From NCBI RefSeq assembly GCF_964204645.1, contig NC_134032.1:1056501-1120500 (forward strand): a DNA stretch of 64,000 nt. The letters are read 5' to 3'. Numbering within the stretch: the first letter of the stretch is position 1; the number at the start of each line of letters is the position of its first letter. This document shows positions 45,101 through 48,100 of this stretch, piece by piece. The translations under genes were made by a program, and so were the position numbers. The DNA comes from Tubulanus polymorphus (lineage: Eukaryota; Nemertea; Palaeonemertea; Tubulaniformes; Tubulanidae). The notes under the pieces were generated by a model. That model was not told the origin of the DNA. It saw only the letters and a program-made list of their open reading frames with translations, and made no database searches.

Positions 45101-48100
45101 GCGGAAATGTTAACTCTTTTCGGGATATTACGACGTCACAGAGGTATATTTTTATATTCCGCCGATTCAAATAGGCCTCATTTTGGGCCAACCTCCTTAC
45201 TCGATGTCCCAGAAAACTTGGGATATGGGTAACTTTTTAACGTCTGAGGCTTGACAATAACAGGAATGTCCACAGTAACAGGAATTTCCACAGTAACCGG
45301 AATTTCCACAGTAACAGGAATTTCCACAGTAACAAGAATTTCCACAGTAACCGGAATTTCCACAGTAACAACAAAATGGTTTACATTAGTTTATATTAAT
45401 ATTATTATTAAGCTGCGCTATATAAATGACATTATTATTATTATTATTATTATTATTATTATTATTATTATCATTATTATTATTATTATTATTATTATTA
45501 TTATTATTATTATTATTATTATTATTATTATTATTATTATTATTATTATTATTATTATTATTATTATTATTATTATTATTATTATTATTATTATTATTGT
45601 GATTATGATTATGATTATTATTATTATCATTAGTATAATTATTAGTATAATTATTATTATTATCATTAATTTTTATATATTTCAGCGCCGGAGATTATCG
45701 ATCGCTCCGGGTTGCCCGTGTCTACGGACAAAATCGAAGACGATGACGTCACGTTACGCGTCAAATGCGACGGAATCCCGCGACCGGTGGTCACGTGGTA
45801 CAAAGACAACATCGACGTGGCGACGTTCGAGGACGAACGATTTTTCGCCGAAGGTGAAGGTCACAACTATCGTCTGACGATCAAATGTCTAGAACGCGCA
45901 GATGAGGGCACGTACAAATTCTCGGCGTTAAATAAAGAAGGCAACGCGACGGCGCTCGGGTATATAGAGGTCAGAGGTAAGCGCTCGGGTATATAGAGGT
46001 CAGAGGTAAGCGCTCGGGTATATATAGAGGTCAGAGGTAAGCGCTCGGGTATATATAGAGGTCAGAGGTAAGCGCTCGGGTATATAGAGGTCAGAGGTAA
46101 GCGCTCGGGTATATAGAGGTCAGAGGTAAGCGCTCGGGTATATAGAGGTCAGAGGTAAGCGCTCGGGTATATATAGAGGTCAGAGGTAAGCGCTCGGGTA
46201 TATAGAGGTCAGAGGTAAGCGCTCGGGTATATATAGAGGTCAGAGGTAAGCGCTCGGGTATATATAGAGGTCAGAGGTAAGCGCTCGGGTATATATAGAG
46301 GTCAGAGGTAAGCGCTCGGGTATATATAGAGGTCAGAGGTAAGCGCTCGGGTATATATAGAGGTCAGAGGTAAGCGCTCGGGTATATAGAGGTCAGAGGT
46401 AAGCGCTCGGGTATATAGAGGTCAGAGGTAAGCGCTCGGGTATATATAGAGGTCAGAGGTAAGCGCTCGGGTATATAGAGGTCAGAGGTAAGCGCTCGGG
46501 TATATATAGAGGTCAGAGGTAAGCGCTCGGGTATATATAGAGGTCAGAGGTAAGCGCTCGGGTATATAGAGGTCAGAGGTAAGCGCTCGGGTATATATAG
46601 AGGTCAGAGGTAAGCGCTCGGGTATATAGAGGTCAGAGGTAAGCGCTCGGGTATATATAGAGGTCAGAGGTAAGTGCTCGGGTATATAGAGGTCAGAGGT
46701 AATTGATCGGGTATATATAGAGGTCAGAGGTAAGCGCTCGGGTATATATAGAGGTCAGAGGTAAGCGCTCGGGTATATATAGAGGTCAGAGGTCATTGAT
46801 CGGGTGTATAAATAGAGGTCAGAGGTAAGCGCTCGGGTATATAGAGGTCAGAGGTAAGCGCTCGGGTATATATAGAGGTCAGAGGTAAGCGCTCGGGTAT
46901 ATATAGAGGTCAGAGGTAAGCGCTCGGGTATATAGAGGTCAGAGGTAAGCGCTCGGGTATATATAGAGGTCAGAGGTAAGCGCTCGGGTATATAGAGGTC
47001 AGAGGTAATTGATCGGGTATATATAGAGGTCAGAGGTAAGCGCTCGGGTATATATAGAGGTCAGAGGTAAGCGCTCGGGTATATATAGAGGTCAGAGGTC
47101 ATTGATCGGGTGTATAAATAGAGGTCAGAGGTAATTGATCGGGTATATATAGAGGTCAGAGGTAATTGATCGGGTGTATATAGAGGTCAGAGGTCATTGA
47201 TCGGGTGTATAAATAGAGGTCAGAGGTAATTGATCGGGTATATAGAGAGGTCAGAGGTAATTGATCGGGTGTATATAGAGGTCAGAGGTCATTGATCGGG
47301 TGTATAAATAGAGGTCAGAGGTAATTGATCGGGTATATATAGAGGTCAGAGGTAAGCGCTCGGGTATATAGAGGTCAGAGGTAAGCGCTCGGGTATATAT
47401 AGAGGTCAGAGGTAAGCGCTCGGGTATATAGAGGTCAGAGGTAAGCGCTCGGGTATATATAGAGGTCAGAGGTAAGCGCTCGGGTATATAGAGGTCAGAG
47501 GTAATTGATCGGGTGTATATAGAGGTCAGAGGTAAGCGCTCGGGTATATATAGAGGTCAGAGGTAAGCGCTCGGGTATATATAGAGGTCAGAGGTCATTG
47601 ATCGGGTATATAAATAGAGGTCAGAGGTAAGCGCTTGGGTATATATAGAGGTCAGAGGTAAGCGCTCGGGTATATAGAGGTCAGAGGTAAGCGCTCGGGT
47701 ATATAGAGAGGTCAGAGGTAAGCGCTCGGGTATATAGAGAGGTCAGAGGTAAGCGCTCGGGTATATATAGAGGTCAGAGGTAATTGATCGGGTGTATAAA
47801 TAGAGGTCTGAGGTAAGCGATGAAAAATCCTCTTTTCGTAGATTCCCGCCGATGACAGTCTCTACCCCGCAACAGAAGCCGTTGTAAATTCATGATAGTA
47901 CAATTCATAGAAATATAAACCTTTATGGCATCTGGGTTTTTACTCAACGGCGTTACGTAACTCTGCCCTAATAGATTCCTCACAGTGATTCGAACCCGAT
48001 GACATCACGAGGGTCACTGTAAGGAGAATCCCTCTGGAAAATCCCGATTGCCCGACATCTTTATTAGAGCTGTCAATCGAATAACGGTTTTTTTTAAATT

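Follow-up and report, generated by a model that had tools for sequence, protein, structure and literature searches.

Which donor does a cell use when the end of an exon and its 5' splice site have been copied in tandem dozens of times, and does such an array serve its gene or is it simply carried along? This question is raised by an immunoglobulin (Ig) gene of Tubulanus polymorphus. The gene lies in the window, which here means the whole stretch of 64 kb that was analysed, C8:1056501-1120500, and the end of its Ig exon is the first unit of a long array of exon ends and donors.

Anatomy of the gene and its array

Conceptual splicing of the forward-strand gene model (Table 1) yields two products, of 236 aa and 414 aa. 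The predicted first coding exon is an open frame whose phase joins the Ig exon, and, because every junction of the model is in phase 1, skipping of the Ig exon would also stay in frame (317 aa). The Ig domain is the only Pfam domain in the conceptual protein, and the 414-aa product has a C-terminal stretch that is hydrophobic as judged by eye. The two alternative last coding exons begin with similar protein sequences (AESTAPESDEDDANFYHSADDS.. and AEITNEEYMDDAELSSDG..); one soon hits a stop, and the other leads to the hydrophobic C-terminus.

Table 1. Features of the Ig gene and of its donor array, in positions of the window
Feature	Position	Strand	Basis
Predicted first coding exon (MMVDSVPVDVDAILSRTRPLSTVRKRTYYK)	39164..39254	+	ends in phase 1 at G/GTAACC; start codon and 5' end putative
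Ig I-set exon, 291 nt, phase 1-1; its 3' end is array unit 1	45686..45976	+	Pfam PF07679, 6.8e-14; AG acceptor, GT donor
Array of 61 units of exon end plus donor	45952..47819	+	TRF, unit split, donor count
Authentic donor GTAAGC, first of 61	45977..45982	+	sole donor of the 61 that yields the 414-aa frame
In-frame TAG met through any later donor	45994..45996	+	same 133-aa product, ending GKRSGI, from 60/60 later donors
60 further donor hexamers: 45 GTAAGC, 1 GTAAGT, 9 GTAATT, 5 GTCATT	46006..47818	+	positions and counts
Last unit, among the more diverged; its donor runs into non-repeat intron GATGAAAA	47786..47819	+	edit distance 6 (largest, 7)
Next coding exon, 222 nt, phase 1-1, acceptor TTTCAG	48115..48336	+	in frame with the Ig exon through the first donor only
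Alternative last coding exon (236-aa product)	52446..52552	+	acceptor TTTTCTAG, frame; predicted
Alternative last coding exon (414-aa product)	52646..53286	+	acceptor TTTTCTAG, frame; predicted

The array spans 1.87 kb, with a TRF score of 2935, and its units measure 29 bp (19 units), 31 bp (36), 33 bp (five) and, for the final one, 34 bp counting the trailing G. Units 1 and 2 are identical on the exon side over exactly 25 nt, two of which are also the GC closing GTAAGC, so that the 29-bp unit consists of 23 exon nt and 6 intron nt. The donor hexamer is GTAAGC in 46 units, GTAATT in nine, GTCATT in five and GTAAGT in one; the array thus begins at an exon end, and 47/61 of its units carry the donor consensus AG/GTAAGC or GTAAGT. 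These values uphold the initial annotation, which had read from the letters a unit made of the last 25 coding bases of the exon plus its GTAAGC donor, about 60 tandem copies, and AG/GTAAGC kept in about three quarters of them. An ordinary intronic minisatellite is ruled out, as unit 1 is coding and bears the authentic donor. Recursive (ratchet) splice sites are likewise ruled out, the sequence preceding each donor being of the type TATATAGAGGTCAGAG, devoid of a pyrimidine tract. With regard to intron gain by tandem duplication of AGGT segments, the units do contain AG/GT, but in copies 29-33 bp apart, and usual spliceosomal introns are longer than this.

Seventeen sequence types occur among the 61 units, in a non-periodic order, and the two commonest, a 31-mer with 20 copies and a 29-mer identical to the exon copy with 16, account for 36 units. 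Among repeated runs made up of more than two unit types, none exceeds four units, and no higher-order repeat beyond this is seen in the array. A three-unit DNA search of the 268-Mb genome returned at least 28 matches, every listed one within the array, and no second copy of the unit was found elsewhere among the matches listed. Long tandem arrays are a known weak point of assemblies, and the structure might be an artefact of this sort. This is extremely improbable in view of the mixture of unit types over the 1.87 kb, the single locus, and the independent arrays of like build found elsewhere in the genome.

Donor strength and the consequences of donor choice

The energy of the RNA duplex with U1, a quantity that does not measure use, is -9.6 kcal/mol for GTAAGC, -11.8 for GTAAGT, -6.7 for GTAATT and -4.2 for GTCATT; the gene's predicted first coding exon has a donor at -6.5 kcal/mol. 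Local accessibility is 0.05-0.08 at the first eight donors, has a median of 0.069 at the rest and ranges from 0.009 to 0.144 over all 61, which is higher than at other GT sites nearby (median 0.003, n=38). The idea that RNA structure hides the later donors was therefore rejected, since accessibility is similar along the array.

The choice of donor decides the product. In silico, the first donor gives the 414-aa frame and all 60 later donors give one identical truncation of 133 aa, because every later donor retains unit 2, which reads GGT AAG CGC TCG GGT ATA TAG. Messenger RNAs bearing this truncated frame are expected to undergo nonsense-mediated decay. The initial annotation had foreseen many equal 5' splice sites, a TAG within seven codons of any donor after the first, and truncated Ig-only products; the shared pairing energy and similar accessibility of the GTAAGC units, the TAG as seventh codon for 60/60 donors and the single short frame bear it out on each point.

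The further proposal, that the array acts as a splicing decoy, a timer or a copy-number regulator of isoform choice, fared differently, and such readings are possible but unsupported. GTAAG is lost in 14/61 units, including some that match the commonest types everywhere else (types C, E and P). The donor thus shows no visible protection, and neither the unit types nor the donor hexamers of the 61 units give a sign of selection to keep donors. A more specific form of regulation would be unproductive splicing, in which later donors are used in a controlled manner, the 133-aa form or its decay sets the protein level, and copy number is the dial. That a single truncated frame is reached by all 60 later donors, whose GTAAGC members equal the first in U1 pairing and are about as accessible, is what such a system would look like; the convergence is nevertheless dictated by the unit 2 sequence without any need for selection, and GTAAG has been lost from 14/61 units. 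We regard regulated unproductive splicing as unlikely.

Arrays at exon ends elsewhere in the genome

The genome was searched for three consecutive AGGTRAG, AGGTAAGT, AGGTAAGC, AGGTAAGA and AGGTGAGT motifs at repeat spacing. With AGGTRAG at 17-47 nt spacing there were 594+613 matches against 698+694 for the reversed-pattern control, which is no bulk enrichment genome-wide; overlapping hits are counted among these matches, and GA-rich low-complexity sequence makes up many of them. By single donor type, at 23-53 nt spacing on both strands, GTAAGT triplets numbered 28 against 102 in the control, GTGAGT 92 against 254, GTAAGA 104 against 83 and GTAAGC 46 against 6. The GTAAGC excess was counted against neutrality; 31 of the 46 come from the Ig-gene array itself. 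These four donor types were covered singly, and for AGGTRAG and GTAAGA the arrays considered below are those among the matches listed.

The upstream flank was read for 17 donor-bearing arrays, the one in the window included. They are not a random sample: seven were chosen by eye from 16, mostly for not looking low complexity. Five of the 17 start at an exon donor, namely those of the Ig gene, HLCS, DPY19, RPB1 and an axonemal dynein heavy chain, a biased rate that leaves out 16 further listed arrays, nine from the GTAAGT, GTAAGC and GTAAGA lists, some of which are not low complexity, and seven from the GTGAGT list. Two others follow a plausible, unproven exon (C1:812 kb, minus strand, and C3:372241), one is the acceptor-side array described below, and no exon was recognised upstream of nine, five of which are low complexity by eye. 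In the window, the array at 40798-41237, with a donor-like CAG/GTTAGT in its unit, was rejected as an exon-end array, as no exon is seen at its start.

Each of the four other exon donors has its own unit. At C1:92236 (C1:91501-92800, array 724-996), a 183-nt in-frame exon, which we take to be that of HLCS, is followed by nine donors at 31-bp steps, the unit being 14 exon bases and GTAAGACTCCTCCCACC. This exon itself gave no naming match in Pfam, NCBIfam or PDB, and it was placed by a biotin-ligase domain downstream on the same strand, the sole such match in the genome (C1:94734-94865, E 1.1e-5, about 2.4 kb away). The DPY19 exon, GLYYSYYKTIIEAESLFEG..FNLYPE (C10:11194498-11194998, minus strand), matches 7zlg at 7.3e-13 and Pfam Dpy19 at 2e-20. 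Its first donor is at 11194633 and its array, reaching at least 11194362, has about nine unit lengths of about 29-31 bp with a donor, some without GTAAG; only three exon bases are copied exactly, the unit being mostly intronic. The axonemal dynein heavy chain array (C6:22645241-22646490; exon in C6:22644791-22645291) is at least 1.25 kb long, with a unit of 39 coding bases of the exon plus GTAAGAG, and the exon matches dynein axonemal heavy chain 5 at 1.6e-22. A paralogous exon at C1:26661205 is 90% identical, and no donor array was present there among the matches listed, which suggests that the array is younger than the paralogue.

The RPB1 case bears most directly on donor choice. The exon (C9:14218257-14218757, minus strand) matches RPB1 at 4.9e-17 in a PDB search, has no Pfam match and was found once in the genome. 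Its array (C9:14217969-14218307) has eight exact donors and a unit of 47 bp, about 25 bp of which resemble the exon end with one mismatch in our reading. As read from the listed unit, the frame is kept by the first donor only, any later one causing a frameshift or leading into a stop. With a single exon and a single in-frame donor, first-donor choice must work there, provided that the assembly is right. If, in addition, both alleles carry the array, the animal lives with a cell-essential RPB1 mRNA whose correct splicing depends on the first among about eight identical donors. This speaks for a first-donor choice that is good enough generally, presumably through definition of the exon from its fixed acceptor, and for an array that would be tolerable at the Ig gene too.

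An array at an acceptor was also seen. At C9:12094035-12094535, a 22-bp unit, TATTTTACAG/ACTTACCTCTCG, precedes an exon on the other strand; the exon has a Pfam PG_binding_1 match (4.3e-5), no PDB match, and is presumably part of a matrix metalloproteinase prodomain. Its occurrence in another gene suggests that the process is not donor-specific. The exon-donor arrays are probably neutral, splice-site-spanning minisatellites, tolerated as the authentic end copy is the one normally spliced. A stronger claim can be framed, and we hold it as unlikely: that arrays of exon ends with their donors arise repeatedly in this genome through duplication at exon-intron boundaries, that the spliceosome finds the first among as many as dozens of near-identical donors with enough fidelity for the largest subunit of RNA polymerase II to rely on it, and that some arrays may be a length-variable U1 platform or a leak valve.

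These comparisons also bear on two other readings of the Ig-gene array. As a U1 platform, the dozens of U1 sites past the true donor would strengthen exon definition or suppress premature intronic polyadenylation, all unused as donors. In keeping with this, 47/61 units can pair with U1 over AG/GTAAG and have a more favourable pairing energy than the predicted first coding exon's donor (-9.6 versus -6.5), and they are more accessible than the other GT sites nearby; three of the four other exon-donor arrays, however, are much shorter (HLCS with nine donors, RPB1 with eight exact, DPY19 with about nine unit lengths), and we judge a platform very unlikely. The other reading holds that the array breaks the gene, having expanded recently in one that is dispensable or dying, or being a private allele of the sequenced animal. 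The array does look recent, with two types covering 36/61 units, and the protein has no Pfam domain beyond Ig. The frame is nevertheless open and the phases agree over the coding exons, and structures of the same kind sit in RPB1, HLCS, DPY19 and axonemal dynein, which taken together are not dispensable, making a broken gene quite unlikely.

Ig exons served as a second control. The genome has at least 151 I-set matches, with titin-like Ig clusters present among them. No domain end lay within an array of at least three copies in 80 sampled (these are domain ends, some of which may not be exon ends). Near misses were two ends with 2.0 (L067) and 2.5 (L120) copies of a 10- to 13-mer at the end, and at three further ones (L088, L121 and L131) an array starts 36-87 nt past the domain end. 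The 64-kb window holds 14 distinct arrays of at least three copies, 8.2% of its bases, and a rough expectation from 14 arrays per 64 kb and a unit of about 30 bp is about 0.5 among 80 donors. With so low an expectation, 0/80 cannot separate neutral seeding from selection against such arrays.

Origin of the array and known systems

The direction of copying can be read from the fold. The Pfam I-set match stops at residue 90 of 97, where the repeated part starts, and PDB Ig structures align on through the repeated part, several to residues 95-97 (1u2h to 97, 6iaa to 95). This indicates that the exon, whose copy is the ancestral coding one, seeded the array, and not the reverse. Resemblance to the exon is greater close to it: mean edit distance to the exon unit is 1.17 in units 2-24 and 3.22 in units 25-61, and distance along the array correlates with edit distance (Spearman 0.46; the units are autocorrelated, and the p-value should be taken as no more than a guide). 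The array interval is bordered by GCG on either side, which fits an origin by microhomology-mediated duplication and a later phase of expansion and homogenisation in which the coding copy stayed fixed at one end.

The explanation that we consider likely, and the best overall, is a boundary-seeded minisatellite, splicing from the first donor and a neutral array. A tandem duplication spanning the exon-intron boundary would have seeded the minisatellite, and the duplicated segment would then have expanded within the intron to 61 copies. Copy 1, as the end of the Ig domain, would be kept in place by coding constraint, and copies 2-61 would be removed with the intron whenever the first donor is used. 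This donor would serve in the productive mRNA, probably through exon definition from the fixed upstream acceptor, and leakage to a later one would give the stop-truncated product of 133 aa, with removal by nonsense-mediated decay expected. The array itself most likely has no selected function. Behind this explanation stand the anatomy, the donor counts, the frames, the unit without another copy found and the four other exon donors alike, as observed; from the duplication origin to first-donor use, the decay of leaky products and neutrality, the steps are those that we infer.

Some points count against neutrality and first-donor use. The 47/61 donors that are still strong could be read as retention, and the rarity of such arrays at I-set ends (0/80 sampled) could mean selection against them. 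Published work, such as that of Eperon in 1993, reportedly points to an intron-proximal preference when several donors are occupied, which makes first-donor fidelity a real question and not a given. The choice among identical donors has been studied mostly with built minigenes. Several natural arrays, with about 8 to 61 near-identical donors in conserved genes including RPB1, are a test of splice-site choice, in which the junctions of long RNA reads would show directly how faithfully the first donor is used. The arrays may also vary in copy number, and at exon ends such variation could be overlooked or wrongly placed by gene annotation and variant calling.

Donors multiplied by a minisatellite are already known. 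The minisatellite of human IFI6 (6-16) reportedly provides multiple splice donors, and its array presumably begins near the end of exon 2. Its unit is reportedly 12 nt, in about 26 copies, and the frame is kept, so that later donors add amino acids. Both it and the Ig-gene array are minisatellites whose units carry splice donors, whereas the latter has 61 units of 29-33 nt and its later donors read a stop. The initial annotation had known of no described example of this scale; this fails for the kind, given IFI6, although the Ig-gene array is longer, going by these IFI6 numbers, and frame-breaking. According to a passage of PMC4526556, two downstream repeat units of IFI6 act as splice donors, and three mRNA species result. 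Donor use is seen in IFI6 mRNA, whereas the later donors of the Ig-gene array are putative ones. The new part is the recurrence of such arrays in one genome.

Two other systems are related. A passage of PMC4974935 describes a single tandem genomic duplication at the intron 1/exon 2 boundary of potato RdRp that led to a new intron. There, as here, the duplicated segment spans a splice boundary and copies splice signals, whereas the copies of the Ig-gene array are many, short and at the donor, with no new intron evident. Tandem alternative 5' splice sites four bases apart, as treated in part of PMC2423196, are likewise neighbouring donors at which use of the wrong site often leads to a premature stop; there are two of them, whereas the Ig-gene array has dozens, spaced by about 30 bases. 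Passages of PMC3618361, PMC12783039 and PMC2883569 mention no further exon-end donor array, except for IFI6, which is cited in PMC3618361.

Other repeats were seen along the way. On the minus strand at C6:22541311-22544661 there is a 3.3-kb array, mostly of 51-bp units with GAG/GTGAGTC, in which the unit could encode NSLVNIGE before the donor. At C1:1381401-1382400, also on the minus strand, 40-bp units carry a pyrimidine tract and ACAG followed directly by GTGAGG, an acceptor and a donor back to back. An Ig-rich gene at C1:27994501-27998100 has an exon and intron in tandem, with a period of 369 bp and 6.7 copies. In the window, an interspersed repeat has three copies (6628-6897, 37120-37494 and, on the minus strand, 57915-58154), which share an open frame around ..FLRSGRVIFVKYDKIYKQFISIAAGS... 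Large open frames of 395 and 570 aa lie on the minus strand at 29990-33748 of the window, flanked by exons that we take to belong to PRPF6 and EF-hand genes.
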